Origin: a virus
Reading direction: 5' to 3' (one strand)
IMG/VR virus record: IMGVR_UViG_3300032770_001059
Coordinates: 1 to 48,393 of that record
Length of the DNA: 48,393 nt
Both the position numbers and the translations under genes were made by a program. Position 1 is the stretch's first letter, and every line of letters starts with the position of its first letter. Below the pieces are notes generated by a model. The model saw nothing but the letters and a program-made list of their open reading frames with translations, was not told the DNA's origin and made no database searches. This document shows positions 1,336-48,393 of the stretch, in pieces.

Positions 1336-4300
1336 CTAAACCATCGGCTGTGTCGCAGCCGACCTCCCTCTCAAAAACGCGGGGATTGACGAGCCTTTGC
1401 TCGGGTTGATAGCGTCATAGAGCTTCTGCCGCAACGCTTGCCGCTTGTCCGGGCTCACCCGCCGCACCTCCGCATTGAACTTCTGAACGAGCGCCGCACG
1501 ATTCTGCTGCTTCTCCTCCGCGCTCATAACATTCCATATCGGAAGGGCCTCGCTGAATGTGATCTCGTGGTTGGCGAACGTGTGCTTCAGGAAACCTTGC
1601 CGATCTGCAACCCGCGCCCGCGCCGCTTCCTTGCCTTCGAGCTGCCCCGACTCTCTACGAGTGATATAGTCGTCCGCTTCCTCTACTTCTTCAGGCGTGC
1701 GTGGCCCACGGTGTGCCTTTAGCGACTCGTAAGCCTTGCGCTCGGCCCGTGTCCAATCGAATCCGCGCGGAGGAGGACCCAGGCCTGCTTCACCCAGTCC
1801 CGCCTTTACACCCTCGCCCTGCTTCCAGCCGCGCAAGATGCTCTGGATGCTAATGGGAGTGCCAATGCCGTGCTTCGCGTCCTGCCACCGCTGCACCCAC
1901 CACGAATCGTCCGGGTTGTGAACCATATCATTGTTGAAGTCCCGATTCCGCATGACATCCCAAAGGCCGCTCACCAGATCGGAGGTCTTCGCCGACAGGT
2001 ACGAGCCGATGCCGTGGAAGTACAGCGACATCGCATCCTTCATCACGACTGCCGGGACCGTAACACGCCGCGGCTTCCCGTGGATGTCCGTTCCACCGAT
2101 GCGGGCCGCGAACAGGTCGTAAGCATCCTTCGGACGTTCCCCGGTGGTGAGGTACTGGAGGATGGCGTTACCAGCCGTCCACGCCATGAAGAGGCCGAGT
2201 ATCTTGGCGAAGTCCGGGTGCAGCCTGGGGACCCACGTCGAACCTGCCGGAGGCTCGAACTTCGGGTTGAACCGGCTGTACGCATACGCCGCGCTGTTGC
2301 CGATCTCGCGCGCCTGTCCGAAGAGAGCATTCTTCGTCAGACGATAGTTGCCAGCCGCCCACTGTGCCGCACGGAACAGAATCTGGTTTCCCGTCTTGAA
2401 CGTGCTATTCCAGAAGAACTTGTCCCAGTTCACCTGCCCGAATAGATCCTCAACGCTATCGACGCTCTTCCGGGCTACCTCGTCCCGCGTCATCTTGCCG
2501 GCCGCGATCTCGGGAGCATAGTCCGCCAGGTTGAAGGCGTGCTCTTTGAAGAAGGAGCCAACCTTCAGCATGGGGATGTACACCTCGAACAGCGGCTTAA
2601 AGCTGTACTGGAGTGCTGCCCGCCCGCCGTGCCACAGCGTCTTGAATGCCGTCCCAAGGGGATTCGTGCCCCAGTCGCGATTCACCCATGCTTGATTGAA
2701 TTGTGCGACGGCGTTCGTCCGCTCGTCGGGATGGAGGTCGAGCCTCATGCCGCCGTGGAACATATCATCGACGTACTGCTGCACGAGCGGATACTGCCGC
2801 GCGAACTTCTGCCCCCGCTTCGTTTGCAGAAAGCTCTTGGAGTCGCGGACGTAAGCCATCACGTCGCGCCCGAGCTGGAACCGGGTGACTGGGCTGGCCA
2901 GCGCTGTCGCCATGTCCACCGCGCCACGGCTGATCCACGGCAGCCCGTTGCCCCGGAGCCCGTGCACCACTTCGCGCGCGCCCAGGCCAAGCTCGGAGCC
3001 AATGCCGGAAACCGTCTCGGTCACGGCATGGAACAGCGAGAAGCCCAACCGCCATTGCGTGAGCGTGTTCTTGGTCGCCAGCACCCCGCGTCCGATGGCA
3101 TACTTGCGAATCCAGTCGTCGCTCAGATAGTTGTTCATCAGGCGAGCGTAGTCATTTCGCAGATACCAGTCGCCAGCATCGACATATCCCTCGCCGGATG
3201 CGGCCATGAACCGCACGTTGCCGATGCGGTCATTCTCGATCTTCGAGAAGCCGTCTGGCGGTCTGACGCCCTTGCGCCGTGGAACAAAGATGCGAGCGCC
3301 CTGGTCCTTCGCGTCCCACCACATGTTCTGCGCGGTGATGTAGCGCTCCGCATCCGCCTGTGCCCTCTTGAACATGGTCACAGGGTTCCACTCCCACGGC
3401 ACGCCGCCGCGCTCGACGCCCTCGCTCATACTGGCGAGAGTGGACTGCTTCATAAAGCCCTTCGAACCTTGCAGCGGCCGACGACCTTTCGGCGCTCCGG
3501 GTGCCACGCGATTGCCGGTGGTCTGCTCAGACTCTTCCGGCTCGATGAGGTTGCCCTCTTCGTCGACGCCCTTCGGCAGTTCCTTCCACATCACGCGGTA
3601 GTGATTGCGCTTGTACGAGAGGATGCTGTCGGCAATCTGAGTGGCAACGCTCCGCTTCGTCGGGCGCTCGCCTTTCTCGGCTTCCTTCGTCGCACTGCGG
3701 AATTTCTCGAGGTTGTGAACGAACGCCGCCTTCTCTTCGCGCGACAGTCCGTTCCACAGTTCCTGCTCCTTCGGTCCGAGGCTGCGAACCTGCGCCTCGA
3801 CCACCCGCATGTAGGTGTCCTCGTCCGTGTCGGCCATGAACTTCGCCAGGTCACGGAGTTCGGAGGTGGGCTGGTCTGCGCCGGCTTTCATGCGATCGAC
3901 GAACTTCACCTGCTGGTCGCGCGGAAGCTTGTCGAACGCTTTCTCAGCAGCGCCGAGCGCCTGGTCCAGCAGGAAGGCACGCTTCGCCTTCTCGCCCGTC
4001 AGAGTCATCACGCTAGTCAACGTCGGCTCAGGGACATCCGCGCGCGGAGTGACCAAGTGTCGCATCTCGGTGAGCGCGGTGCCCAGGTTACCCCGCAGCT
4101 TCGCCAGCGTCGGCGCGAGGTCCTGCTTCGACAGGCCAGACAGCGCACGGGCGCCGTACTGAGCTGCAACGTCCACGCCGAACAGCGAGCCCCGCAGGGT
4201 CGTGCCTGCCTCAGTCGAGGAGGGTTTCGGCTTCGCCGCACCCTTCTCCGCCGGTGCCATGCCCTTCGCTTCGTCGGCCATCGTCGGAGAAGCATACAGG

Positions 4301-7300
4301 GCGGACTTCTTCATGACCTGCTCAAGCACCTGCTTCTCTTTGCCGGCCGGAATCGCGGCGCGCATCGTGTTGCCCTGCGAAACGAAGTCGCCAGTGAGGT
4401 CGGTGATGCCATGATCGAGGAAGTATTTTCCCCCGCGCGCTTTCGCCTTCGGAGTGACAACGAACAGCTTGCCGCCATCGTTGATGACACGCACATTCTG
4501 GTCGCGGCTGGAGATGCCGATGTCCTCGATGCGCGGGTTGACGCTACTCTTCAGGAACTTCACCGCATGAGCGGCGTCGCGCAGCCGATAGTCGCCCTTC
4601 GTGTTCTGTTTGAAATCGAACTTCTTCGGCAGCAGGATACCTTGCTCGGTAGTGCCGTCCTGCTTCGTGAAGTTGATGATCGTGCCGCGAGTCTCGTGCA
4701 GTTCACCATAGGCAGCGAGCAGGTTGCCAGTGATGATCTTGGCCGTCTCGCGCGTATCTGTCCGTGCCAGCTTGAAGATATTGGGTGCCTTCTCGTACAG
4801 TGACGCGACCTGAATCCTCTCCAACTGGGTCGCCGGAACCGCGATGTGACGCATGGGGCCAGCCACCGCTAGTTGCACGTTGATCTTGCTCATGGCATAA
4901 GGATTGCCATTGCCCTTGTGCGTGCTGCGGATGTTCGTCACCGCCGCGCTGAACGTGTCGCCGTTGATCTCGATGCGGAGCGTGCTGCCGATCTCGTGGT
5001 CACGGATGAACGCGCGCGCCCTCTGCGCGATAGCATCAGCGTTCACAAGCGCCGGACTGTTCGGATCCATCGAGCGCTTGAAATCGGCAAACTGGCCGTC
5101 CAGGGTCGAGATAAGTTCCTGTGCGTGCTTCGGTGGAGTCTTGCCGTCGAGGTGGGTGTTGATGCTCTCCGTCACCTCTTCGGGCGTGAGCGGCTTGCCC
5201 TGCGCCTTGATGGAGTATTCACCGTAGATAGCATCTTCACCGAACGGCGAATCCGGGTTGGTGCCATCCGACAGCACATCGGAGCGCAGTTCCTGCGCGT
5301 CGAAGTCGAAGGTCTTGGGCTCAAGCTCGTTCTGGTTCGTCGCGTCCAGGTACGCGATGTAATCGTTGTACTGCTGTTCCACGTCGCGGTAGAAGGCTTC
5401 CTGCACCTTCACCGGGAGGATGGCCAGCCGGCCCGTCGCTGTGCGCGCGATGTCGGGAGCAGGTTCGCCGTTGTCTTGCAGCCCGTCGAGGTTGAGCATG
5501 TTGGCGAGCTGCGGGTTGTCGTTCAGGTAGTTACCGATGATCTGGTCGCCATACTTGTTCATCATGTCGGCCGCTTTCACCGAGGTAGCCGACTCCGTGT
5601 TGCTCGACGTGTTCGCGTTCAGCGACTTCATCTTTTTGGAGAGCAGCGCGGTGGGCCGCTTCTCTGCCGGAAGATCGACATTCAGGATGGTGTAGGAAGG
5701 CAACCGAACCTGCCCGGTGCGATGGATGCGGCCCAGCATCTGCATGAAGGTGTTGATGTCCTGGGCGGGTTGGAGGACGAACATGTGCCGCGGGCGCTGG
5801 TCGGCAAACTTTTCTGACGCATGGAGGCTGATACCGGTCGAACCGGCCACGTTCAGCACGAGTGAGTCAAGTCGCCCGTCATTGAACCGGCGCGTGGTTT
5901 CCACCTTGTCGCGCTGCTCTTGAATCGGGACGTGCGCGAGCCTTGGGTTCTCCGGGTCCGAGTAGTCCACCGCCAGGTTGCGGCCCGTGATCTCGGCAAC
6001 ACTGTAGCCAGCTTCCTCGATGCGGTGCCGAATCCAATCTATCGGCGACACAGGAATGTTGATTTGCAGTTTGTCGATGATGCGCTGTGCGCGGTCGTAA
6101 GCCTTCCGTGTCTCCGGGTCGAGGTCGCTGAGGGGAACGTGCTGCGTACTCTTATCACCGTGCCTATCTTTAATGACCAGGTAGCGCGTCCTATCCAGCG
6201 CGCGCGAGAGCACGGTGCGATAGTCGAAGTTCTCCAAGGGGTCGCCGTCGCGCATGTGGTTCCCGAGCTTGCCATCCGGCCCGAGTTCAAGTTCCTCGCC
6301 ATCGTGAATCGTGCGATGTTCATTAACATAGGCGGACAGGAACGAACCCATCGTGTTGTCAAGCGCGACGATGGGCTTCTCGCCGCGCCGAATTGCCGCA
6401 ATCGCTTCCTCAGCGCCGCTGTCAGCCTTGATCCCGAGCAGCATCTGCCGCACGAAGTTGTGAACCACTGACGAGAACTCGGTGTGACCGACGTTCTTTT
6501 CCGCCTGATTGCCGCCACCTTGAATCTTGGTTGCCTTGTTCTCCCTACGCGCCTGGGCCTGTGCTTCAGCCACATACGTCTCGTGGAACGCATGGTCAGC
6601 CTCGACTATGGCGCGCAGAGCTTCGGTGGTCGCATTCGCAAGTCTCGCGTGCTCCGCGCGGTGCTCGGTGTCCACCTTCGTCACCATGCTCACGCCAGCG
6701 TAAGAACGCTCACGACGGAACATCTGGCCGGCCTTGACGAGATTGTTTGACACAACCGTTTGCAGCGGTAATCCGCCGTCCTTCATCGCCTGAATCAGAG
6801 TGCCGCCGTCTCCAATAGCATCCCCGATGTCGGTCTTGAAGTAGAGCGGCATGTTGTCAGGCCGCTTCGCGTAGGTCGCGGAGAGATAGGTAACACCCTT
6901 CGCGCCCGCCATGGTCTGCTGCATGTACTCGCCGGTGTTCGACTCGCCGCCGGCATTGTGTGATTCGTCGAGGATAAAGATGGCGTGCGGCGCGACTGCC
7001 CTGAGCACTTCCTGCTGAGTGTTCGCCTGATTGACTTGCGAGTAGGTGACGAACATTGCATTGCGGCCCGACGGGAGCTTGCCAGTCGCCGCAATGGATT
7101 TCAGGGTTTCGCGGTGAGTTGAGGGCTTGTTCGTGTAGGCTTTTCTGCCATCGGGCAGTGTGATCGCCGCTTCGCTATTGACGATGAGTGGCTTGATGTC
7201 ATGGCTACCGATGTCGGCCAGGTCGCCATACATGTCGCTGAACAGCTCCGGCTTTTTCGTGACAAAGACTGGGATGTCGCCCTGCTTCGCTGCCCAACGA

Positions 7301-10300
7301 ATCAGAGCCGCAGCTTGCCGTCCCTTGCCGATACCCGTCTGGTCGGCGATGATCACTGCCTTACCGTTCTGTATCTGGTGAATCGCAGCCGCAATCGCGT
7401 CCACCTGCAAACCCATGAACGCATCGTGCAATTCGTCGAGGGAATCGTACCCAAGCTGGTCCGCGACGAACTTGTCGAGGTCGCCAACTGCATCCTCCAG
7501 CGAGCGCATAGCTTGCTGCAAGGGCTGCTTCATGTTGATGGGGATAAGGACGCCGACATCCTTCTTGCCGGATGTTGGCGTATAGCCGACCTGAAGTTGA
7601 TTATCTTCGGAGGTTAGCCCGGTAGGGCTTCCGTTATCTGTTCCAGGCTTGGGAGTTCGCTTTTCTCCAGAGTCAGGTTTTGCCCCTTCTGGAAGTTGAT
7701 CCGATCGAGGCACATCTGCATCTGGCCGCAAGCTAGAATCGCCCCCGGCCAATCCTTCGGGTTGACGAGGTACGCTATGTCGTTTAGGTCCGGCAGGTGC
7801 TCCGGGCTGCTGGTTAGGATGATCTTGGCTTGCTGCGGGTTCTGGTCTATCAGTTCCTTTAGACGATCCACCAGAACCAACTCGTACAACTCCCGCGTCA
7901 TCGGCTTCCGGCCGCTGTACGGAACTGTCAGGCCGACGAACCCCGGATGTGTCAGAGGCGGGCGCCAGACCTTTATCAAATTGCTCATAGGCTTCTTCCC
8001 ATGTTCCTACCCGTGGGATGCTGCCCACCGGAGGGGCGATGGCGGACGACTCTTGCCGTCCGTCGATGGTGATGACTCTAACCGGCCAAGCCGCACCTTG
8101 CCGCCCGTAGAGCTTTCCGTCAAGCTCGAAGTGGCTGCTTACATGGTAGTGCGAGTACAGCCAGTTGAAGAAGATGGAATCATCCGTGCTTTGACCACCG
8201 GGAACGCGATTCGCTCCCAAAATGAGACACGCCCTGCCGTCATCTTTCATGGCATCCAGGGCACGGGCAGCGATCAACTGGTCAATCTGCCCGATTTTGT
8301 AGCCGTCGACGCGAACTTTCGTCGCCTTACCGTCATCGTCCTTCACGGAGCCAAACGGCGGATTCGTGACAACCGCATCCACTGACTTTGCCTTCACGTC
8401 AGCTTTCAGCGCATCGCCTTCGGTGGTCTTGAATCCCTGCTCCTTCAGCGCCTCGGCGCGGCCCGGATTCAACTCGTTCGCGGTGACCTTCGACGGGTCG
8501 GCAGCGATGAGCAACATGCCATTGCCAGCCGTGGGCTCATACACTGTCGTGTTCTTGTCGATGCCCGCGGCCTTGTCCGCGAGGAAGGCGAGAGGTGCAG
8601 GTGTGCTGTACGCCTGATTCTCGATACTGGTCGATGTGCGGACGTTGAGGTTCGGCTGTGATTCGTACAGCTTCAGCAGGTCATCGAAAGTGCCCTTCGT
8701 GTCGGAACCCGACGCAACGATGTCGCGCGCGCGGTGAACGATGGCGACTTCCAGGGCCTCTTGCGCTTCCTTCATGCGCGCGGGTTCAGGCGCTTTGCCG
8801 TCGAACTCCTCGACCATCTTCTTCAGCGCGTTATTGTCGGCCGGCATCTCGCCGTCCATGATCTTCCGCAGGAAGTAGGCGCTTAGGGTCGGCTGCTTGG
8901 GCTGCGGTTGCGTCTCGGACTTACCGCTTACCACATCCGACCTACCGCTTACCGAATCCGGTTTCGCTTTCGCTTTGGGCGCCAGTTCGATCTCAGCTTC
9001 GTCCGCTGAGACGAGTTCGATGTGGCCATCCGGCTCCGAACGCACCGTCAGCATCGGATGCCCCTGCTGGTCGTGGCTCACATAGGTCACCTCACCATAG
9101 AAAGGGCTGCCGTATTTCGGCGTGACGAAAATGCGCTTCCCGACGAGATCGGGAGTGAACTGCACACCCGTGGGCTTGGGCTGTACTTCGAGATTCCTTC
9201 CACTCGGTGCTTTTCCGGCGCGCAGATCCTCAGCAGCTTGGTTCGCCTCTTCCTGCGTCTTTCTCCGCGCGACCACGCGACCTTCTTTGTCGAGAACCTT
9301 CCAGCCTTTGTCCCACGGAGTGCCCGCACCCTTCTTCACCAGGTATCCGCCCTCTGGCTTCGGCGGTTCCCTGTGAACACCCGCGCCCGGAGAGAACTTC
9401 ACCGGCTTGGGCTTCTCTTCGGTCTGGTCCGGCTGCTGTGGCTGCTGCACGTCCGTCGAGACGGGACCAGCTTCTTGCCCCATCGCACGCTTGAGGCTGT
9501 TCGTAAAATCCGACTCGCTCAGGTCCGTGCCGAACGCGCCATTGAACGCAGCCACTGCGCTCGGCTTCTCGCCCATCATCAGGAAGCCCTGATCGGGCGT
9601 GTCCATCGCAGCATCGTGAGCGAACTTCCGGAAAGCCTTGCGCGCATCCCTCGTCGGCTCGGCCAGCTTGCGAACGACGGCGTCGACGGCGGGATTGCGC
9701 TGTGCGAAGAAACCAGCCTGCGCGAGGTGAGTCTCGACGTTGCTACCACGTTCTGCGATGTCTGCGTGGTCGGCCAGGGCAGCGCGCACGATCGGCACGA
9801 TGTTGTACTCATCGTTGCGGCCAGCCAGCGTCACGAGGTCGGTGAGCGAGCCATCGAGCTTATTCAGGATGGACGAAGGGGTCTTGTCCATCAGCACCGG
9901 GTCATTGACGACCAGACCGCGCACAGCACGCTCGACGAACGTCTTACCCTCTGCACTCAGGCCACCGTTCGAGCTGTCCACAAATTGCGGACGTTCACGT
10001 TCCGTGATCACGCCGTCCTGCGTGAGCAACTTGATGATGTCGTGGCCGTGGTCACGCATCACGTCGCGCAGTGAGCCCTCGCCCCCGAGATCATCCACCC
10101 ATCCACCAATCGCGCGGAGCGTGTCGGGCGAGATGTTCTTGCCGGCACTGACAGCGCGCTCACTGACGCCGAGCGCACCCGTCATCGACTTGTTGAGTTC
10201 AGAACCGAGACGGCGTGCTTGTTCCAGCGTCGAAGGCGAATCGTTCAACTCGCGCACGAGCACAGGGTTCTTGAACTTGTCCACTGCCTTCGGATCGAGT

Positions 10301-12279
10301 CCGAACTGCGCCGCCTGATTCTTGATGGCTTGCCGATATGGGTCACCAGCGCCAGCCGCATAAACGCGTTGCGTGGACATCACGCGCGAGTTGCCGCCCA
10401 GGACAATTCCGTCCTTGGAGACAACAGGCGGACCATTCACCGCGTCGGGATTCGTGTTCACCGTGTACGCAGGGTCATAGTGCTGTGACTGTTGAATGAC
10501 GCGGTTCTGCGCTTCGGGCTGAGTGTGGTAGGCGCGCTCTTGAACACCCGGAGGATAGTTAGGGTTCGGCGCGAACGTCTGCGGATTGTGCGAGGGAGTG
10601 AGGTGATCAGCCTCGACGATCTTGTATTTGGCCGCGAGCGAAGAGGAGGGCGTCTTGACGGCAGTGTCGCCGCCGTACATGCCCGGAATCGCAGCGCCTT
10701 TGCCGAACTGTTCGTCCTGCTTGCCCGTGTTCACCAGCGGGGTGCGGGGTGCGGGGGTGGGTGCGGGTGCGGGGGTGGGTGTGGGGGTGGCTCCGGTTTG
10801 GAATTCACCTTCTTTACTTACCGTGGGTTTACTTTCTGGCTGCTGCTCTAAACCAGGTGCAGGTGCAGGAGCTTGCTGCGGGATCGCGGGCGCTTGTGCT
10901 TCAGGCTTCGGTGCGACAGCGGGTGCAGATTGCGGCTGTGCCGGCTCCTCAGGTTGCTGGGCGACGATAGGCTGCGGTGCTTGTTCCTGCGTACCAGGTA
11001 GCGCGAGATTGCGTTGTGGGGAAGGCTGCTGCTCAGTGGCCGGCTGCTCCGCCGCGCGAGACCGGGTGAACCGCTCCGTGATGCGGTTCCACAAGTCTGC
11101 GAGCCGTTGACGAATCGCGCCCTGCGCCTGTACCGGGGTCGGAGCAGCTTGGTCGGGGAATACACCAGCGTTGCGTAATGTGCCCCACGCCTGATTCAGT
11201 TGCGAAGCCTGTTCCGCCGTGTTCGGGTTGACGTCAGGGTGAACCTTCGCCACCGCCTGTTTGTAGGCAGATGTGGCTTGGTCGAGAGTCGCGTTCTGCG
11301 GAAGATCGACACCGACGCTCTGGAGAATGGCGCGGAAGTCAGCGACGTGCTGCGCGAGTTCGGCTGCTTCGGGTGACACAACCCCCGCACCCTCAGCTGA
11401 TCCGCTGCTTCCACGGAACGCGCTGCGGAGGAATGGCAGCAACAGCGCAGCGTTCGAGATGAGTTCGGCTGTGTCGGGGTCTGCGCCCAACTTCTGCGCG
11501 CCTTTCTGGATGGCCGGTTGAGCAATAGCGTAAGGAGCAACCGATGGGAGGAACGCGGGGTCCATCATTGCGACGGGCGCGGCAGTTTCCATCGCGCCAG
11601 AAATGGCTTCGTTCGCACCGCGGATAGCTTGCTTCTTGTTTACCTGTCGGCTCGGCGCACTGCTTGTGATTCCCGGCCCGCCGAGCATATCGCCCAAGGC
11701 ATCCAACGCGCCGCTCTGTTGCAGTTCACCGATCCCATGAGCCGCTTTCACGGGGCCAACTGTGATTGCGGCGCCGGGAATGAAGGGCTCCGCACTTTCG
11801 GGCACGCCTGAAGCCGTGCCCGGAGCGCCCATCTTTTGCAGGATTCGCCCAGGCAGTGTTGCGCCCGTGCCGTGCTTGATGTCGCCTTCCAAGTCCTCCA
11901 GCCAAGCCAAAGGCCCGGAGCGAGCAGAGATCGTGGCATCGGCAGTCGGTTGCGTCGGCTTCGCCGTGGGGGTCGGAGCCGTGGTCGGCGCTGGCGTCGG
12001 TGTGGGCTGTCCCCACAGCGCGTGCTCGCCGCCGGGAAAAGTGTCGGGACTTGGCTGTTGCTGCTGTGCGGTCGGAGCGGACGTTCCGGCCGGCGCGCCG
12101 CCGAACTTCATATCCCACAGTGTCGCCTTCGTCTCGCGAGGCAGGTTCAGCCCATCGAAGCGCTGTTTGAAGTCAGACTGGTTCTGTGCTTGGTGAAACG
12201 CATCCCATGCGTCAGCTTTGACGCTGTTGGGAGCGTCCACCCCGTCCAGAACACCCTTCAGATCCTGCGGCTCCGCCAT
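1336..12279 (-). CDS. Giant polyvalent protein: J domain, DdrB/ParB-like, N6-methylase, strawberry-notch helicase
   Basis: A single frame of 3647 codons, 22% of the window. Order of regions: Pro/Gln-rich N-terminus (about 60-130); a J domain near 305-370 with the HPD motif at H347; a Pro/Ala-rich linker (about 400-530); a ParB/DdrB-like domain (about 550-700, GGNSR near 630); an N6-adenine methylase with EPTAGNG (about 1245) and catalytic NPPF at 1306-1309; a disordered linker (about 1430-1560); a superfamily 2 helicase of the strawberry-notch type with Walker A TGIGKG (K1652), DESH (1771-1774) and motif VI GRIHRTGQ (2183-2190); then a long C-terminus with amphipathic helices typical of large polyvalent protein-associated domains. 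Such proteins (phage P1 DarB/DdrB are relatives in concept) are packaged in the capsid and injected to protect or process DNA. GGAG lies 7 nt before the ATG, 13 nt after the previous stop. The domain calls are strong for the methylase and helicase, good for the J domain, moderate for ParB, weak for the C-terminus. A second gene is nested in the 1430-1560 linker. Confidence 0.93.
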   Translation of the reverse strand: MAEPQDLKGVLDGVDAPNSVKADAWDAFHQAQNQSDFKQRFDGLNLPRETKATLWDMKFGGAPAGTSAPTAQQQQPSPDTFPGGEHALWGQPTPTPAPTTAPTPTAKPTQPTADATISARSGPLAWLEDLEGDIKHGTGATLPGRILQKMGAPGTASGVPESAEPFIPGAAITVGPVKAAHGIGELQQSGALDALGDMLGGPGITSSAPSRQVNKKQAIRGANEAISGAMETAAPVAMMDPAFLPSVAPYAIAQPAIQKGAQKLGADPDTAELISNAALLLPFLRSAFRGSSGSAEGAGVVSPEAAELAQHVADFRAILQSVGVDLPQNATLDQATSAYKQAVAKVHPDVNPNTAEQASQLNQAWGTLRNAGVFPDQAAPTPVQAQGAIRQRLADLWNRITERFTRSRAAEQPATEQQPSPQRNLALPGTQEQAPQPIVAQQPEEPAQPQSAPAVAPKPEAQAPAIPQQAPAPAPGLEQQPESKPTVSKEGEFQTGATPTPTPAPAPTPAPRTPLVNTGKQDEQFGKGAAIPGMYGGDTAVKTPSSSLAAKYKIVEADHLTPSHNPQTFAPNPNYPPGVQERAYHTQPEAQNRVIQQSQHYDPAYTVNTNPDAVNGPPVVSKDGIVLGGNSRVMSTQRVYAAGAGDPYRQAIKNQAAQFGLDPKAVDKFKNPVLVRELNDSPSTLEQARRLGSELNKSMTGALGVSERAVSAGKNISPDTLRAIGGWVDDLGGEGSLRDVMRDHGHDIIKLLTQDGVITERERPQFVDSSNGGLSAEGKTFVERAVRGLVVNDPVLMDKTPSSILNKLDGSLTDLVTLAGRNDEYNIVPIVRAALADHADIAERGSNVETHLAQAGFFAQRNPAVDAVVRKLAEPTRDARKAFRKFAHDAAMDTPDQGFLMMGEKPSAVAAFNGAFGTDLSESDFTNSLKRAMGQEAGPVSTDVQQPQQPDQTEEKPKPVKFSPGAGVHREPPKPEGGYLVKKGAGTPWDKGWKVLDKEGRVVARRKTQEEANQAAEDLRAGKAPSGRNLEVQPKPTGVQFTPDLVGKRIFVTPKYGSPFYGEVTYVSHDQQGHPMLTVRSEPDGHIELVSADEAEIELAPKAKAKPDSVSGRSDVVSGKSETQPQPKQPTLSAYFLRKIMDGEMPADNNALKKMVEEFDGKAPEPARMKEAQEALEVAIVHRARDIVASGSDTKGTFDDLLKLYESQPNLNVRTSTSIENQAYSTPAPLAFLADKAAGIDKNTTVYEPTAGNGMLLIAADPSKVTANELNPGRAEALKEQGFKTTEGDALKADVKAKSVDAVVTNPPFGSVKDDDGKATKVRVDGYKIGQIDQLIAARALDAMKDDGRACLILGANRVPGGQSTDDSIFFNWLYSHYHVSSHFELDGKLYGRQGAAWPVRVITIDGRQESSAIAPPVGSIPRVGTWEEAYEQFDKGLAPASDTSGVRRPDSSVQRPEADDAGVVRVGSGGSSKGTDRPEPAASQDHPNQQPGAPAGPKRHSVPRQPEGLAGGDSSLRPDADVPRSDQLPEGAKPDSGEKRTPKPGTDNGSPTGLTSEDNQLQVGYTPTSGKKDVGVLIPINMKQPLQQAMRSLEDAVGDLDKFVADQLGYDSLDELHDAFMGLQVDAIAAAIHQIQNGKAVIIADQTGIGKGRQAAALIRWAAKQGDIPVFVTKKPELFSDMYGDLADIGSHDIKPLIVNSEAAITLPDGRKAYTNKPSTHRETLKSIAATGKLPSGRNAMFVTYSQVNQANTQQEVLRAVAPHAIFILDESHNAGGESNTGEYMQQTMAGAKGVTYLSATYAKRPDNMPLYFKTDIGDAIGDGGTLIQAMKDGGLPLQTVVSNNLVKAGQMFRRERSYAGVSMVTKVDTEHRAEHARLANATTEALRAIVEADHAFHETYVAEAQAQARRENKATKIQGGGNQAEKNVGHTEFSSVVHNFVRQMLLGIKADSGAEEAIAAIRRGEKPIVALDNTMGSFLSAYVNEHRTIHDGEELELGPDGKLGNHMRDGDPLENFDYRTVLSRALDRTRYLVIKDRHGDKSTQHVPLSDLDPETRKAYDRAQRIIDKLQINIPVSPIDWIRHRIEEAGYSVAEITGRNLAVDYSDPENPRLAHVPIQEQRDKVETTRRFNDGRLDSLVLNVAGSTGISLHASEKFADQRPRHMFVLQPAQDINTFMQMLGRIHRTGQVRLPSYTILNVDLPAEKRPTALLSKKMKSLNANTSSNTESATSVKAADMMNKYGDQIIGNYLNDNPQLANMLNLDGLQDNGEPAPDIARTATGRLAILPVKVQEAFYRDVEQQYNDYIAYLDATNQNELEPKTFDFDAQELRSDVLSDGTNPDSPFGEDAIYGEYSIKAQGKPLTPEEVTESINTHLDGKTPPKHAQELISTLDGQFADFKRSMDPNSPALVNADAIAQRARAFIRDHEIGSTLRIEINGDTFSAAVTNIRSTHKGNGNPYAMSKINVQLAVAGPMRHIAVPATQLERIQVASLYEKAPNIFKLARTDTRETAKIITGNLLAAYGELHETRGTIINFTKQDGTTEQGILLPKKFDFKQNTKGDYRLRDAAHAVKFLKSSVNPRIEDIGISSRDQNVRVINDGGKLFVVTPKAKARGGKYFLDHGITDLTGDFVSQGNTMRAAIPAGKEKQVLEQVMKKSALYASPTMADEAKGMAPAEKGAAKPKPSSTEAGTTLRGSLFGVDVAAQYGARALSGLSKQDLAPTLAKLRGNLGTALTEMRHLVTPRADVPEPTLTSVMTLTGEKAKRAFLLDQALGAAEKAFDKLPRDQQVKFVDRMKAGADQPTSELRDLAKFMADTDEDTYMRVVEAQVRSLGPKEQELWNGLSREEKAAFVHNLEKFRSATKEAEKGERPTKRSVATQIADSILSYKRNHYRVMWKELPKGVDEEGNLIEPEESEQTTGNRVAPGAPKGRRPLQGSKGFMKQSTLASMSEGVERGGVPWEWNPVTMFKRAQADAERYITAQNMWWDAKDQGARIFVPRRKGVRPPDGFSKIENDRIGNVRFMAASGEGYVDAGDWYLRNDYARLMNNYLSDDWIRKYAIGRGVLATKNTLTQWRLGFSLFHAVTETVSGIGSELGLGAREVVHGLRGNGLPWISRGAVDMATALASPVTRFQLGRDVMAYVRDSKSFLQTKRGQKFARQYPLVQQYVDDMFHGGMRLDLHPDERTNAVAQFNQAWVNRDWGTNPLGTAFKTLWHGGRAALQYSFKPLFEVYIPMLKVGSFFKEHAFNLADYAPEIAAGKMTRDEVARKSVDSVEDLFGQVNWDKFFWNSTFKTGNQILFRAAQWAAGNYRLTKNALFGQAREIGNSAAYAYSRFNPKFEPPAGSTWVPRLHPDFAKILGLFMAWTAGNAILQYLTTGERPKDAYDLFAARIGGTDIHGKPRRVTVPAVVMKDAMSLYFHGIGSYLSAKTSDLVSGLWDVMRNRDFNNDMVHNPDDSWWVQRWQDAKHGIGTPISIQSILRGWKQGEGVKAGLGEAGLGPPPRGFDWTRAERKAYESLKAHRGPRTPEEVEEADDYITRRESGQLEGKEAARARVADRQGFLKHTFANHEITFSEALPIWNVMSAEEKQQNRAALVQKFNAEVRRVSPDKRQALRQKLYDAINPSKGSSIPAFLRGRSAATQPMV
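7614..7988 (-). CDS. Overprinted 124-aa gene nested inside the giant polyvalent gene
   Basis: The frame lies on the same strand as the giant gene, offset by one base, over the codons for residues about 1431-1556. Its product has ordinary globular composition (for example RELYELVLVDRLKELID, then NDIAYLVNPKDWPG), while the host frame here reads as a Pro/Gly/Ser/Asp-rich disordered linker. By hand count about 75% of nested codons end in G or C, against about 36% in the host frame over the same bases, so the codon bias of real coding sequence sits in the nested frame. The ATG is preceded by GGGAAGAAG, a fair ribosome site with 5-6 nt spacing. The host frame also seems preserved: all 12 T-ending nested codons avoid a following codon that would create a host-frame stop. 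There is no membrane segment or known domain. It could be an accessory partner of the methylase-helicase. Function unknown. Confidence 0.7.
   Translation of the reverse strand: MSNLIKVWRPPLTHPGFVGLTVPYSGRKPMTRELYELVLVDRLKELIDQNPQQAKIILTSSPEHLPDLNDIAYLVNPKDWPGAILACGQMQMCLDRINFQKGQNLTLEKSELPSLEQITEALPG
10739..10796 (+). repeat. G-rich simple repeat with quadruplex potential
   Basis: The + strand has many runs of three to five G separated by T, C or TGC, which satisfies the usual G-quadruplex pattern. On the - strand it encodes the Pro/Thr/Ala repeat of the giant protein (PTPTPAPAPTPAP). The G-rich strand is the template for that gene, so any quadruplex would form in DNA rather than in the mRNA. 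It may simply reflect codon choice in a Pro-rich linker. Confidence 0.6.
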
Positions 12280-24305: not shown

Positions 24306-25511
24306 TTAGGCGAACTGGGTGATGTTGTAGCCGCGAGCGTGCTTCTTCTCGTGCCGAACCTGCCAGCCGGCCACGGTGCGATACTCGTCCACCTTGCGGG
24401 CGCTGCCGTCCTTTACGACGTCCTGCCACAGCTTGGTGTTCATGTTCTGCCCGTTGCCCGCCAGGTAACGGTAAGTCACCGAAGGCAAGTCGATGAGGTA
24501 GAGCTCATCGTTAAATCCGGCCGCACCGGCGATGCCAGCTTCCATACGGAAGTTGTTGGCGATCATGTAGGTGCCGTGATTGCTCACGATCTTCTTGATG
24601 GTCACGCCGAACACCGAATCCTGCACGTTGGTGAGGATCTTGTTGGCGCTGAAGAAGTCGAAAGCGGAGAGCACGTGCGGACCCGCCATGCACAGCTTCT
24701 CCTTCTCGCCATACCGGAACCCCGTCTCGCCGAACTGCAACATGGCGGAGTAGGTGATGGTGGTGGAGAAGTCGGTCACGTTGGTCGCGATGCGCGCCTT
24801 CACGCCGTCCGTCGCCCAGCGAGAACCCGTGGACTCCAGATCCTCGTAGAATTGGCCCCACAGGCCGGCAGCCTCGATCTCCGAGCGGTGCCGCACCAGC
24901 GAAACACCCATCTGGTACTTGCGCTCGCCTTCGGGCACCGCGTAGGCTTCGGTCGCCTCCATGATGTCCGAGGTCTGGATCGGAGTGCGGAAGAACTGGC
25001 ACGCCGACTTGTGAGGAACCTTCTGCGTCGAACGCACGGTCGGAACCGGGCCACCTTCCACGCACGCCTGCCCCAAGATGCGGAGCGAGCTGGTCGCGGT
25101 GATGGTGCCGCCCGCGCCGCCGCCCAGGTTGCGGGTGACGGTCAGCAGGTTGCCGGCGACGGTGGTGACGAGGATGATCTCGTCGAGTCCGCTCTGGCCG
25201 GCGCCGGTAGGCTTGGGCACGATCACCAGGTCGTTGACGGCGAAAATCGTGCCATCGGCAACGGTGATCTGCGTTGCGTTGGACGCGTAGTCGGTGCCGT
25301 TGTTCACCTGCCCCCACAGCGGAGCTTCCGCGTCCTCAAACCACTCGAACTTCGGAGCGATGGCGGGAGCGCGCTTCTTCGCGTTATTGGTGAGAACCCA
25401 CAGCGGAGCGGCATCAGGCTCCAGCTTGAGCATCGTTTCGTCGACGTCACGCTTCAGAGTGGTTTCCTGAGAAGCCATCTGAACCGTGCGGGTCATGTTG
25501 ATGATAGCCAT
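24306..25511 (-). CDS. Major capsid protein (SU10-like, HK97 fold)
   Basis: 401 residues. The N-terminal helix (QETTLKRDVDETMLKLEPD, then APLWVLTNN), the FEWFEDAEAP segment and the E-loop-like region with a VNDLVIVPKP strand are typical of the SU10 / DUF5309 capsid family, which adopts the HK97 fold. The C-terminal part (KLWQDVVKDGSARKVDEYRT) is also family-like. GAGGAA precedes the ATG by about 7 nt. It lies between a scaffold-like gene upstream and a terminator-like hairpin downstream, the standard order for head genes. There is no fused protease. This is one of the most secure calls in the window. Confidence 0.9.
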   Translation of the reverse strand: MAIINMTRTVQMASQETTLKRDVDETMLKLEPDAAPLWVLTNNAKKRAPAIAPKFEWFEDAEAPLWGQVNNGTDYASNATQITVADGTIFAVNDLVIVPKPTGAGQSGLDEIILVTTVAGNLLTVTRNLGGGAGGTITATSSLRILGQACVEGGPVPTVRSTQKVPHKSACQFFRTPIQTSDIMEATEAYAVPEGERKYQMGVSLVRHRSEIEAAGLWGQFYEDLESTGSRWATDGVKARIATNVTDFSTTITYSAMLQFGETGFRYGEKEKLCMAGPHVLSAFDFFSANKILTNVQDSVFGVTIKKIVSNHGTYMIANNFRMEAGIAGAAGFNDELYLIDLPSVTYRYLAGNGQNMNTKLWQDVVKDGSARKVDEYRTVAGWQVRHEKKHARGYNITQFA

Positions 25512-39085: not shown

Positions 39086-39916
39086 CTAATTCGCCTGTAC
39101 TTTGCTGTTGACGCGCCGAAACTGGCGCGGTTCGTCGCCCAGAAGGTCTTGCGTGCCGGCCAGATTCAACCATCGTTCACTTTTTTCCGAGAGCGAATTG
39201 GGCTGGCGGCCTCGCTGGGGCACTGGCACCCACTCGCCCCACTGCTTGAAGTAGAACGCCACGCCGGCATCTTCGCACTGCGATTTAATCCGACGCACCC
39301 AGCCGGGGTGCATCGGACGCGCGTGCGGGCCGCTCTCGCCACCGACGATCACCCAATCGATGCTTCTGAGATCAACCGTGCCCAAGTCAGCGATCAGGGG
39401 CTCACAGGAGAGGAAGCGTACTTCTGCTGGAATCTCCCGCAGGATGTCCACACGGTATCGGCGCTCGGGATCTTCCACTGTCGTCCCCACCCAGACGTTC
39501 TCCGGGATTGTGCCGTTCTGGCAGGTATCGATGTAGGCCTTCATTCTGTCTGGTCTCTTCGTGAACAGCAGGAACGTGTGCCGCGAGCACGCCTTCATCA
39601 CCTCGAATGCATGGTTAATAATCTCGATCGGCACCAGCTCGTGGAACGTGTCACTCATCGAATTCACGAACGTCGCCCGCGGCTTCTGCCAGCGCACCGG
39701 GTCATCCAAGTGCTTCTCGATAACGCGCAGCTTACCCGTCCACCGCGGCTCGCCATGGTGCCACTCGGCGAGGCCTTCGTAGGGTTCACCCGGAGCAGCG
39801 AAACGCGCCGAAACTCGTTCCGCATAGCAATGCCTGCATCCCGGACTCTTGCGCGTGCAGCCGCGCAGAAAATTCCAGCTCGAATCAACGTAAGGAATGC
39901 TCGTTTTGTATCCCAT
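39086..39916 (-). CDS. Gp37/Gp68-family protein (DUF5131)
   Basis: 276 residues from the ATG at 39916 (GAGAGG 7 nt upstream), overlapping the DnaB gene by 32 nt. The product has the family's N-terminal pattern SSWNFLRGCTRKSPGCRHCYAER, written here as its key residues C30, C37, C40 in the longer numbering, with a CxxxxxxCxxC cluster reminiscent of an iron-sulfur site; then FVNSMSDTFHE, LLFTKRPDRM, VWVGTTVEDPE, FLSCEPL and WVIVGGESGP. Members are common in phages and plasmids and resemble radical-SAM-type barrels, but their reaction is not known to me. It sits at the end of the replication operon. Confidence 0.87.
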   Translation of the reverse strand: MGYKTSIPYVDSSWNFLRGCTRKSPGCRHCYAERVSARFAAPGEPYEGLAEWHHGEPRWTGKLRVIEKHLDDPVRWQKPRATFVNSMSDTFHELVPIEIINHAFEVMKACSRHTFLLFTKRPDRMKAYIDTCQNGTIPENVWVGTTVEDPERRYRVDILREIPAEVRFLSCEPLIADLGTVDLRSIDWVIVGGESGPHARPMHPGWVRRIKSQCEDAGVAFYFKQWGEWVPVPQRGRQPNSLSEKSERWLNLAGTQDLLGDEPRQFRRVNSKVQAN

Positions 39917-41234
39917 TCTTGGTCCTCTCCATGAATCGCACGTAGTCACGATGCAGCACGACGGACTCGACGCCCACCATGCCTTCGCGCTGCTTCGCGA
40001 TGATGATTTCGTCCTCGCCCGTCCAATTACTGTCCTGCTTGGGGCGAAAGAGCAGCAGGATCACATGCGCATGCGCCTCGATGTAGCCCGTTTCGCGAAG
40101 CTGAATCATCGATGGCCGCGAGTTCTCATTGCCATCCTTCGGCCGAGCCATCTGCGACAGCGCCACAACCGGCACGTGCTCTCTCTTGGGAATCGCGCGC
40201 AGCACATTGCTCGCGTAGGAAACGCGGTCCTTCAGGTCATGCCCCGGCGCCTGCAGGAGTTGCAGGTAATCGACGACGATCAGCTTCACACCGTGCTGCC
40301 GGATGTACAGCCGCGAGATGGCGCACAGGTCCTGCGCTGTCAGCTCGTCGGGATCGACAATCCACATAGGCCACTTGGCGACCTCAGCTGCGACGCGCTC
40401 CAGCTTCGCGTATTCATCCGGCGAAAGTTCTTTCGGACTGCGAATCTTGTAGGCCGGAATCTTTGCCTCCCACGGCAGGATGCGCCGGCATAGCTGGCGG
40501 CGCGTCATCTCATGAGAGAAAAACAGCACCGGAACGCCCCGGCTGGCGTTCGTTGCCGTGATCTGGACGCCCAGCACCGTCTTGCCGCGAGAAGGCAAAG
40601 CGCCGATGACCCAGTACTCGTCCTCGCGAATGCCAGTCGTTATCTCATCCACACCGCGCACCCCTGTAGGCAAGCCAACCAGATCGCCATCACGCTCTCG
40701 GATGCTCTTGATTTCGAGGATGGTCTCGTTCATGGCGTCCCATATAGGCACGGCGACCGTGCGTTCCTCGATGCCGCGCAGCCGTAGCAGCGCGTCTTCG
40801 GTTTGGGAGATGACCTGGTCAGCGTTGATGCTCTGCTCGTAAGCTCCCGAGATGGCGTTCTCGGCGATGTGGATCAGGCCGCGGAGCATCGCCTTTTCGC
40901 GCACGATTTCGCAGTAATGCGCTAAGCTCGGACGCTCGCATACGCCGTCCATGAGATCGAGGATGTAGGCCAATCCGCCGACCGTCTTCAGCCACTGCCG
41001 GCGTTCCAACTCGTCGCTGACGGTAATCGGGTCCATTGGCTGGCCACGATCCGCCATATCACGTACGACGGTATAAATCCTGCGATGGGCATCGCAGGTG
41101 AAATAGTCCGGCCGCAGCATGGTCGCGACTTCATGCACGGTTTTGTTGTTGCTCAGGATGCCGCCGAGGATCGAGCGCTCCGCGGCATCGCTGGCGGGAA
41201 GCCCGCGGTCAAGACTGCGGTCGTTACGCGCCAT
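39885..41234 (-). CDS. dnaB: Replicative DNA helicase
   Basis: 449 residues of the DnaB family, length normal. The N-terminal helical domain (AAERSILGGILSN, about 18-30) is followed by the RecA-like ATPase domain: Walker A GALPSRGKT with K218, FFSHEMTRRQLCRRI (H1a), Walker B LIVVDYLQLL (near 325), and the C-terminal LRETGYIEAHAHVILLLFR. The enzyme unwinds DNA at the phage fork as a hexamer on the lagging strand. The ATG abuts the TAA of the initiator gene (TAAATG). It is encoded with its own initiator, so the phage can load its own helicase. Confidence 0.93.
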   Translation of the reverse strand: MARNDRSLDRGLPASDAAERSILGGILSNNKTVHEVATMLRPDYFTCDAHRRIYTVVRDMADRGQPMDPITVSDELERRQWLKTVGGLAYILDLMDGVCERPSLAHYCEIVREKAMLRGLIHIAENAISGAYEQSINADQVISQTEDALLRLRGIEERTVAVPIWDAMNETILEIKSIRERDGDLVGLPTGVRGVDEITTGIREDEYWVIGALPSRGKTVLGVQITATNASRGVPVLFFSHEMTRRQLCRRILPWEAKIPAYKIRSPKELSPDEYAKLERVAAEVAKWPMWIVDPDELTAQDLCAISRLYIRQHGVKLIVVDYLQLLQAPGHDLKDRVSYASNVLRAIPKREHVPVVALSQMARPKDGNENSRPSMIQLRETGYIEAHAHVILLLFRPKQDSNWTGEDEIIIAKQREGMVGVESVVLHRDYVRFMERTKNGIQNEHSLR

Positions 41235-42197
41235 TTAGTTCACCATCAGCTCCGGGGGAGTCGGGTCTGGGCCATCAGGGTCCATCCCAGCTCGTTGTCG
41301 CCGAACCCTTTCCAGAAGCGGACGTTCCTTCAATGGCGGTGGAAGCGGGTTCGCGTCGTTGCGCTTCTCCTTCCATTGCTCGGGCGTCTCGTTCCAATGG
41401 CCGCCAGCCAGCCACTTCGCCCAGGGCTTGCGCCACTGGCCGGTATATTGATCGCTCTGCTGGTAAAGCCGAGCTTGGAAGACGAGGTAGTCCGTTGCCT
41501 CCATCGCGGAACAGTCACGGTGCTTGGCGCACCTGGCTATCGTCTCGTCGCAGATCACGCGATTCTGCAGCCCGGAAAGCAAAAGCTCCTCCATGAGCTT
41601 GCCGGCGCAAGCAGCGGCATTTAGCTCCTCTTCAGCGTTTAGGCGACGTGGTTTGCTTTCCTGCTCCTGTTCCTGTTCCTGCTCCTGTTCCTGTATGAAC
41701 GAACGGGATGCCCCTTTGATGGGGCTTTGATGGGGCATCGAAGGGGCTTCTGGCGAAGTTTGATGTCCCTTCGAAGGGGCATCCTCTTGTAGGTGGTAGG
41801 GCGCTTGATACAGCTTGAAGAACTCGGCGAAATACCGCGAGCGGTCTTGCTGTCGTGCCAACGTGAGAATGCGCGAACGGCGCTTATCACGTTCGCAGAG
41901 GGTCGCTCCTACCTGGTAGCGCGCCATGTTCGGGACCCAGACCACCTCGACATCGCTGTCGTAGAAGGCGAACTGCACGTCGGCCAGCTTGTCCAACGCG
42001 ACCTTCACCTCGTCGTCGCCGAAGCCCATCTCGTGAGCCACGGTGGGCAACGGCAGGTAGTACAGTCCGATCATGTTCGCGCTTGGACAGGTCAGTAGAT
42101 AAAGGGCGAGCAATTGCGCGTCCCTGCCTGCCTTGCGAATCTGCTTCCCGGTAGCACCTGTCCAGAATGTCGGATGGACAGCGCCGTAGCTCCTCAC
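41235..42197 (-). CDS. Phage replication initiator-like protein
   Basis: 320 residues, GTG start at 42197 overlapping the upstream TGA (GTGA), with GGAG 7 nt before. The N-terminus is a winged-helix-like domain (GKQIRKAGRDAQLLALYLL, then IGLYYLPLPTVAHEMG, DDEVKVALDKLA) known from phage replisome organisers. The middle (about 140-190) is a low-complexity linker with an EQEQEQEQEQE run. The C-terminus is helical and Trp-rich (QWRKPWAKWLAGGHW). Directly upstream of DnaB, it is the likely origin-binding and helicase-loading protein. The linker DNA carries 11-bp iteron-like repeats. Confidence 0.83.
   Translation of the reverse strand: MRSYGAVHPTFWTGATGKQIRKAGRDAQLLALYLLTCPSANMIGLYYLPLPTVAHEMGFGDDEVKVALDKLADVQFAFYDSDVEVVWVPNMARYQVGATLCERDKRRSRILTLARQQDRSRYFAEFFKLYQAPYHLQEDAPSKGHQTSPEAPSMPHQSPIKGASRSFIQEQEQEQEQEQESKPRRLNAEEELNAAACAGKLMEELLLSGLQNRVICDETIARCAKHRDCSAMEATDYLVFQARLYQQSDQYTGQWRKPWAKWLAGGHWNETPEQWKEKRNDANPLPPPLKERPLLERVRRQRAGMDPDGPDPTPPELMVN
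41660..41695 (-). repeat. Hexanucleotide repeat coding for the Glu-Gln run
   Basis: Six CCTGYT units (the last one CCTGTA) in tandem on the + strand, encoding QEQEQ... in the initiator linker. Replication slippage would change the length by pairs of residues without shifting frame. Confidence 0.85.
41704..41784. repeat. 11-bp iteron-like cluster, candidate origin of replication
   Basis: TTTGATGGGGC occurs twice back to back (41715-41736), followed in the same 11-bp phase by ATCGAAGGGGC (41737), an unlike unit (41748), TTTGATGTCCC (41759) and TTCGAAGGGGC (41770). GGATGCCCCTT (41706-41716) and AAGGGGCATCC (41774-41784) are perfect 11-bp inverted repeats bounding the cluster. An 11-bp period is not a multiple of three, so it does not come from a repeated peptide. 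Lambda-like phages place their origin iterons inside the initiator gene, as here. Confidence 0.6.
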
Positions 42198-47094: not shown

Positions 47095-48393
47095 CTAACC
47101 TTCGGCCACTTGTGCAGCGGGTTTCACGTTGGGCATTCGAATGACGCGAGCCTTACGTCCCTTTGGCGGCTTGGGCGTATGCATCTGCTCAAAATCTACC
47201 ATCGCTGCCCGCGTGAGCCTATCCTGCCGCCTGCTGTCCCAGGGTAGGTAATGGCGTTCCGTGATCTTCACACTGGAGTGCCCCAGGAGCAGCGAAACTT
47301 CCTCAAGCGCGGCTCCAGCCTGCAGCTTCTCCACTGCAAAGGTGTCGCGAAGCATGTGGAGATGACACCGTAGCGGCTTATTCTCGCGCTTCAGTTTTGC
47401 CGCGCGAAAGACCTTCATCAATGTGCGCCTCCAGCCTTTGCATGCGGTCTGCGGTTCCCCGTTGCCCGTCCAGAAGAAATAACCTTCACTCATGGCAGGG
47501 ACGGCAAGCACGGCTTGGGCGACATCAGTCGGGATCGCAACGTAGACGTGTCTGCCGTTCTTCGTACGCCGGAGTTGCACTGTCCAAATGCCATGAGAAT
47601 TCTGTTTTAGGTGCTCGCGCGGGAATCGGACGCAATCGATGATCGCGAGCCCGGTCCAGCGCATGAAGAGCAACAGAGCACGAATCCGGTCAGCGCGGCA
47701 CTTGAAGTCACGCCCACCTTGCCACTCGTGCGAGACGTAGGTCGCATCGAGCACTTTTGCAAACTCGTCCGGCCGGAACGCATTGGTGGGGACTGAACGT
47801 TCCAGACTCGGTTCCAAGAGCTCGGCGGGATTATCGGAGATCCACCGCCGGCGCTCACAATAGCGAAAGAAGCTGCGCAGACGTGACGCCTTGCGGTTGC
47901 TGGTCGCCCCGTTGTTTCCCCAACTGTTGCGAAACTTCGTGACCTGGTCCAGATCGAGTTCGGACAGACGCAACAGACCCTGCTCTTTACACCACTGGAG
48001 CAGTTGTCGCTCCAGTAGCGTGACTTCCTGCTTGACAGTTTCGTATGCGCGATTTGTGCCGTACTTCGACTGCATGTAATCGGCGACCGCTTCCACAACT
48101 GTCTTTTGTGTTTCCAGTTCTTCGGCCGCAGCCTTGTTCGCGAGCTCAAATAGAGGTTTGTTGGTCGGGTCGTGCTTCGCGAACCTGCGCAGCAATTCCT
48201 TGCGAGCGCGCTCCCAACTTGTGGTGCCCGTGGATTCGCGCATGCGTGTGCCGTCGGGCGCGGTGCCCGCGATGTACTTCATGCAGTTGCAGCGGCGGTT
48301 CTCAGTGCGATCAGTTTCGCCGTGCTCGGAGTAGTGTTTGCAGTCGGTGCTATGGCGAGTGAAGATGTACAGCCCTTGGGGTCGGCGGGACAT
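47095..48393 (-). CDS. Tyrosine-type integrase
   Basis: 432 residues; the ATG coincides with the end of the window, so it may be complete or clipped. The N-terminus has a Cys/His cluster (CKHY, CNCMKY) followed by a phage-type core-binding domain (about 100-190). Catalytic residues of the C-terminal domain are visible: K278 (RRTKNGRHV), H346 and R349 in HMLRDTF, H372 in LLGHSS and nucleophile Y382 in ERHYLPW. The first conserved Arg, expected in the TGLR-type motif, is Ala (TGLAIID, A250). The protein would integrate and excise the phage. No attP or core repeat could be identified in the window. If Arg I is truly missing, activity may be altered. Confidence 0.88.
   Translation of the reverse strand: MSRRPQGLYIFTRHSTDCKHYSEHGETDRTENRRCNCMKYIAGTAPDGTRMRESTGTTSWERARKELLRRFAKHDPTNKPLFELANKAAAEELETQKTVVEAVADYMQSKYGTNRAYETVKQEVTLLERQLLQWCKEQGLLRLSELDLDQVTKFRNSWGNNGATSNRKASRLRSFFRYCERRRWISDNPAELLEPSLERSVPTNAFRPDEFAKVLDATYVSHEWQGGRDFKCRADRIRALLLFMRWTGLAIIDCVRFPREHLKQNSHGIWTVQLRRTKNGRHVYVAIPTDVAQAVLAVPAMSEGYFFWTGNGEPQTACKGWRRTLMKVFRAAKLKRENKPLRCHLHMLRDTFAVEKLQAGAALEEVSLLLGHSSVKITERHYLPWDSRRQDRLTRAAMVDFEQMHTPKPPKGRKARVIRMPNVKPAAQVAEG

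Follow-up and report, generated by a model that had tools for sequence, protein, structure and literature searches.

Comparative evidence for a gene overprinted in the methylase–helicase linker of giant polyvalent proteins of phages and plasmids

The window analysed here, a stretch of viral DNA of 48,393 nucleotides, carries on its minus strand a gene for a giant protein of 3647 amino acids (aa), and inside this gene, between regions predicted to encode a DNA methylase and a helicase, lies a second open reading frame (ORF) in a different frame. This locus raises the question of whether the same bases encode two proteins and, if so, what the smaller protein might do. A sequence-only reading had proposed that a real gene is overprinted in the linker between the two enzyme domains. 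The features that bear on this proposal are the following.

12279 to 1336 (1336..12279), minus strand: host gene, polyvalent protein of 3647 aa, with a DnaJ-like stretch, ddrB-ParB, an N6-methylase and a Strawberry-notch helicase
11170-11304, minus strand: DnaJ-like stretch near the N-terminus of the giant protein (residues 326-370; E 3.7e-5, below the Pfam cut-off)
8008..8772, minus strand: host-protein region upstream of the linker, identified by a profile match as the N6-adenine methylase domain
7992..8000, minus strand: Shine-Dalgarno (SD)-like site of the nested gene, GGGAAGAAG, within Trp-Glu-Glu codons of the methylase tail
7603..8007, minus strand: linker of the host protein, low-complexity Pro/Gly/Ser/Asp
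7988 to 7614 (7614..7988), minus strand: putative nested overprinted gene for a small protein, 124 codons, ATG start, TAA stop
6583..7602, minus strand: first part of the Strawberry-notch-type SF2 helicase of the host protein

The host protein has the methylase motif NPP(Y/F), present as NPPFGSV, and its methylase region matches N6_Mtase weakly and PHROG methyltransferases more strongly. A C-terminal SF2/SNF2-type helicase with matches to AAA_34 and Helicase_C_4 (Strawberry notch) is part of the same polypeptide. On these sequence matches we assign the host gene to the polyvalent proteins with a DNA methylase–helicase dyad, described by Iyer et al. 2017 (PMC5512222), whose archetype is DarB of phage P1. 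Like the proteins of that dyad, it is a giant multidomain phage or plasmid protein in which an adenine N6-methylase is fused to an SF2 helicase-like ATPase, and ATPases of the Strawberry-notch type occur in a few polyvalent proteins (PMC5512222). The window itself is apparently from a temperate tailed phage, and its other long ORFs mostly lack PHROG matches. Features matched elsewhere in the window are:

24306-25511, minus strand: major head protein match (phrog_1328)
39885-41234, minus strand: DnaB-like helicase match
41235-42197, minus strand: DnaD-like loader match
47095-48393, minus strand: integrase match

The nested ORF is complete, with its own start and stop, and lies inside the host ORF in the +1 frame relative to it. 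The coding signature changes frame at this ORF and does so equally clearly nowhere else in the giant gene. GC content at codon positions 1, 2 and 3 is 0.60, 0.36 and 0.74 in the nested frame (7988 to 7614) and 0.74, 0.60 and 0.36 in the host frame of the overlap, compared with 0.64, 0.46 and 0.73 in the entire host gene; by codon position, it is the nested frame that has the genome-typical composition. An earlier hand count, which had put G or C at about 75% of nested third positions against about 36% in the host frame, was reproduced (75% without the stop codon and 74% overall, vs 36%). The host-frame linker is, as described before, low-complexity Pro/Gly/Ser/Asp sequence. Twelve nested codons end in T and none of them is followed by AA, AG or GA, with which 26.6% of codons start (P = 0.024), in line with the earlier count. 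The giant gene contains further long ORFs in alternative frames (10848-11165, 11196-11540, 11726-12118 and 6039-6593), none of which shows the coding signature. In the window alone, the length of the nested ORF is unremarkable (host-codon shuffle, P = 0.20), and the case for a gene comes not from this length but from relatives, in which the place and frame are the same, stops are absent and wobble changes are suppressed.

Used as a single query, the nested protein of the window gave no match in phages, plasmids or viral contigs. Because this one protein is too divergent to find its relatives, the host helicase was used as bait, which brought in 10 viral contigs and later 80. Searches with tblastn then located matches in the +1 frame directly upstream of the helicase in L009 (43%, 1e-28), L004 (32%) and L006 (35%), and at the same place and frame in L005 (27%), L008 (25%) and L002 (partial, 62%). 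An iterated profile identified the nested homologue in 48 loci including the window, with position and frame constant, and by profile search there are about 60 loci in total, all in the +1 frame of a fused methylase–helicase gene. Cyanobacterial plasmids (Chroococcidiopsis, Picosynechococcus and Gloeobacter) carry homologues, as do assembled genomes from Betaproteobacteria, Cyanobacteria and Desulfovibrio. A search for free-standing copies that covered viral contigs, phages, plasmids and about 890 genomes from three groups found none.

Among 118 fused genes with linkers of at least 300 nt, a set that includes a few duplicate loci, 97 contain a +1 ORF that reaches 90 codons or more and 8 contain such an ORF in +2; such +1 ORFs occur in 0 of 25 fused genes with shorter linkers. 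Some +1 ORFs in GC-rich relatives, for example in L038, are no longer than codon shuffles give. Host genes that lack the nested gene have linkers that are either short or long and unrelated. A relative in which the nested frame is broken while the linker persists was sought, and within the main nested clade only L096 lacks the nested gene; its linker is short (217 nt). Long +2-frame ORFs (82-157 codons) are also present in the linkers of L056, L057, L070 and L140 (shuffle P up to 0.055), and these could be due to chance or represent a further overlap.

The laboratory cyanobacterium Synechococcus (Picosynechococcus) PCC 7002 carries the nested gene on its plasmid pAQ6, at NC_010480 101013-100510 (L186 3578-4081), where it has 168 codons and lies within SYNPCC7002_RS15125. 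The start of the pAQ6 host gene falls inside the usual methylase domain, beside a RelE/ParE-type gene. In Gloeobacter (L086 4782-5231; NZ_CP063846.1 32507-32956), the nested frame was called by an automatic pipeline, and RefSeq annotates it as WP_230844304.1 and begins the helicase gene after it. We considered this locus as an unfused methylase–nested gene–helicase ancestor and rejected the idea, since the host frame continues without a stop through the whole stretch between methylase and helicase; judging from the sequence, the RefSeq host gene is probably a misannotation.

Substitutions in the overlap differ sharply between frames. Over 21 pairs, nested codon positions 1, 2 and 3 differ at.26,.23 and.40, and in every pair nested identity exceeds host-frame identity. 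The difference is lowest at nested position 2, and therefore the host wobble position is the most conserved of the three. At four-fold sites of the host frame in the overlap, 55 of 598 differ (9.2%), compared with 213 of 590 (36%) at those of the nested frame and 750 of 1558 (48%) in the helicase; synonymous-site conservation, which had been named as a check on the proposal, is thus found (9% vs 48%). Synonymous shuffling of nested codons in 44 overlaps gave an expectation of 88±6.6 host-frame stops, and converse shuffling an expectation of 67±5.3 nested-frame stops; none was observed in either frame, in a test that counts related loci as independent and so overstates the sample. The constraint effects are large and visible pair by pair. 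The absence of stops and the frame contrasts therefore indicate that both frames are held open, as had been claimed, with most of the amino-acid constraint on the nested frame. Specifically, the alignments point to a host linker constrained mainly to stay stop-free and a nested frame under strong protein-level constraint, and the Pro/Gly/Ser/Asp composition of the linker would follow from codon use of the nested frame.

A start signal reported before the nested ATG is indeed there, GGGAAGAAG at 8000-7992, 3 nt from the ATG. An ATG is conserved at the equivalent place in relatives, and in the window's group the SD site and ATG sit in codons of a conserved W-x-x-x-Y methylase tail. Predicted SD duplexes at nested ATGs average -6.6 kcal/mol, vs -2.5 for 2923 other +1 ATGs of the same genes (p = 9e-18, again with related loci counted as independent and the sample overstated). 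The corresponding medians are -6.5 over 44 relatives and -2.4 for control ATGs, and the window duplex is moderate (-4.2 kcal/mol). These SD signals suggest internal initiation at the nested ATG, and both frames are presumably translated in vivo.

The protein encoded by the nested frame also looks like a folded product, as had been suspected from its sequence. AlphaFold2 predicts a confident fold (pLDDT 93.6, pTM 0.85) with the order strand, helix bundle, strand, last helix. In an alignment of 40 sequences (A4), W8, P10, V22 and L115 are near or fully invariant, the first two forming a W-x-P motif close to the N-terminus of the window protein, and neither a conserved polar cluster nor invariant catalytic-type polar residues were found. 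Foldseek returned no fold match in the PDB (best E 3.9) or BFVD (best E 2.1), and searches of Pfam, PHROGs and PDB sequences gave no related family. PHROG 1818 and Pfam families such as DUF2947 were rejected as candidates because their E-values were marginal and came from single sequences; within the 40-sequence alignment, no family drew matches from two or more members. The nested proteins are mostly acidic (median pI 4.6; median charge -8, range -16 to 0), and that of the window is weakly so (-2.3). From its sequence, the small protein is probably non-enzymatic.

On a tree of 164 helicases, the nested state needs 3 changes, vs a mean of 54.7 for shuffled labels; this is a quick tree with long branches, compatible with a single origin or with two. 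Long linkers without the nested gene (L100, L101, L103, L105 and others) belong mostly to one separate Bacteroidota clade. Fused and unfused forms of the methylase and helicase coexist: the methylase and Strawberry-notch helicase are separate and neighbouring, without a nested gene, in Bacteroidota loci L099, L104, L112, L117, L135 and others, and Persicobacter has separate methylase and helicase genes and lacks the nested gene. In the Bacteroidota conjugative-element branch, the nested gene was lost or never gained. Eight deep-branching carriers (A5; L039, L048, BS-TP4 and others) have a weak sequence match to the main family (hhalign 42.6%), and the structure predicted for one of them from its own six sequences arranges the main elements in the same order (pLDDT 79.1). 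For a short divergent subfamily (A6), the comparison with the main family gives 19.8% by hhalign, and homology is not established. The shorter +1 products (about 95-115 aa) of L064, L069, L027, L038, L111, L053, L078, L056 and L060, which start at an equivalent place and are without the W-x-P strand, share this hhalign value of 19.8% and may or may not be homologous to the main family.

The sequence comparisons strongly support an overlap that is old, rather than local or young, and that has been maintained across a deep clade of genes from phages and plasmids. By the same comparisons, the arrangement appears common to phages and plasmids of Proteobacteria, Desulfovibrionales and Cyanobacteria, and probably also to those of Bacteroidota. 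As to how it arose, birth over an existing linker and insertion followed by read-through both stand; the genome-typical composition of the nested frame cannot separate them, because the more constrained frame gains it either way.

We conclude that the nested ORF is very probably an overprinted, independently initiated gene, and homologues, frame-specific constraint, start signals and the predicted fold all bear out the original proposal. Programmed ribosomal frameshifting into the nested frame, which would replace the helicase with another folded domain at the C-terminus of the methylase, would fit the constant +1 offset and the several relatives in which the +1 frame is already open well before the ATG, by up to 102 codons. 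However, an ATG with a strong SD site is conserved at the equivalent place, 9 of 44 nested ATGs come immediately after a stop codon and the +1 frame of the window is closed 6 codons upstream; SD strength and these stops therefore favour internal initiation over frameshifting, which we regard as very unlikely. It is similarly improbable that the giant ORF is really two genes, with the host-frame linker untranslated and the nested frame alone coding there. Nearly frozen host wobble sites, a host frame that is poorly conserved in the linker and the RefSeq split in Gloeobacter would suit such a division, but the host frame is open in all overlaps (0 stops vs 88 expected), short-linker relatives are plain fusions, and nested wobble sites are also somewhat suppressed (36% vs 48%). 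The suggestion that a GC-rich, low-complexity linker merely happens to be open in +1 gains something from the window alone, in which a +1 ORF of this length is not rare (P = 0.20 on shuffling host codons). It is already refuted by the contrast at wobble sites (9% vs 48%), and amino-acid homology across relatives, frame-specific substitutions, SD signals, the confident fold, the scarcity of +2 ORFs and the lack of such ORFs in all 25 short-linker genes also speak against it, leaving it with a negligible probability.

If the nested ORF is an independently initiated gene, one mRNA of the polyvalent gene would give two proteins from the same 372 bases. Ribosomes making the giant protein would read the linker as a disordered Pro/Gly/Ser/Asp tether joining methylase and helicase, while others would start internally, at the SD site and ATG in the methylase-tail codons, and make a separate folded protein of 124 aa. 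We hypothesize that this small protein binds the methylase–translocase giant made from the same message, and might regulate or chaperone it until it is packaged or transferred with DNA. Virions carry packaged DarB-like proteins, which protect the injected DNA in cis (PMC5512222), so that it is plausible for the giant protein to have a partner by which it is held or assembled inside the cell that produces it. We infer such a role from two features, the restriction of the small protein to the linker and its lack of invariant catalytic-type polar residues; that it is a cis-encoded partner or regulator of the giant protein has, in our estimate, a little under an even chance. Overprinting alone would also give both the obligate linkage and the absence of free-standing copies. 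A real nested gene could instead have a product with a role in trans, such as a small protein for anti-defence or host takeover, the linker being only its birthplace or a saving of space. Such elements carry counter-defence functions (PMC5512222), and the usual acidity of the nested proteins would fit; on the other hand, unlike mobile anti-defence genes, the nested gene has no copy outside the linker in the databases searched, and the charge is modest for a DNA mimic. We consider an effector in trans a substantial possibility, if somewhat improbable. The cis-partner reading in its fullest form, a family of unprecedented fold that exists only overprinted in the methylase–translocase linker, with a single origin, spread over several phyla and dedicated to the giant protein, is put forward tentatively, as rather less than an even bet.

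Established overprinted genes occur mostly in small compact viruses. The present arrangement resembles virus overprinting as reviewed in PMC8227390, in that a shifted-frame protein lies inside a gene, one product is disordered and the other has no known fold match. Unlike the established cases, it is found in dsDNA phages and large plasmids whose hosts belong to several phyla, and the disordered member of the pair forms a linker within a giant enzyme. The main text describing the dyad (PMC5512222) uses neither "overlap" nor "overprint" and makes no mention of a second frame. P1 darB, the best-studied methylase–helicase gene, was checked for a nested homologue and has none, in which it differs from the host gene of the window. 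No prior report of the nested overlap was found in the openly licensed literature. Overlapping genes are an already known kind of gene; what is new is a family that is obligately overprinted, lacks a fold match and occurs across phyla in giant genes of dsDNA phages and plasmids.

To our knowledge, long same-strand nested genes in large-genome phages or bacterial plasmids have rarely been proven, and here the proof is comparative and repeated over dozens of lineages. The locus illustrates that a disordered linker can be the coding by-product of a second gene, and that genes of this kind are overlooked or garbled by automatic annotation; in one relative, the nested frame has been annotated to the detriment of the host gene. 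The copy on pAQ6 in Synechococcus PCC 7002 makes the nested gene testable, with Bacteroides phage BS-TP4 as a less certain second, and with this plasmid carrier one can also test directly how old overlapping genes survive when genome size is under no obvious pressure. Polyvalent genes of the anti-restriction type have an unrecognised component, which, if the model is right, may offer a new fold.
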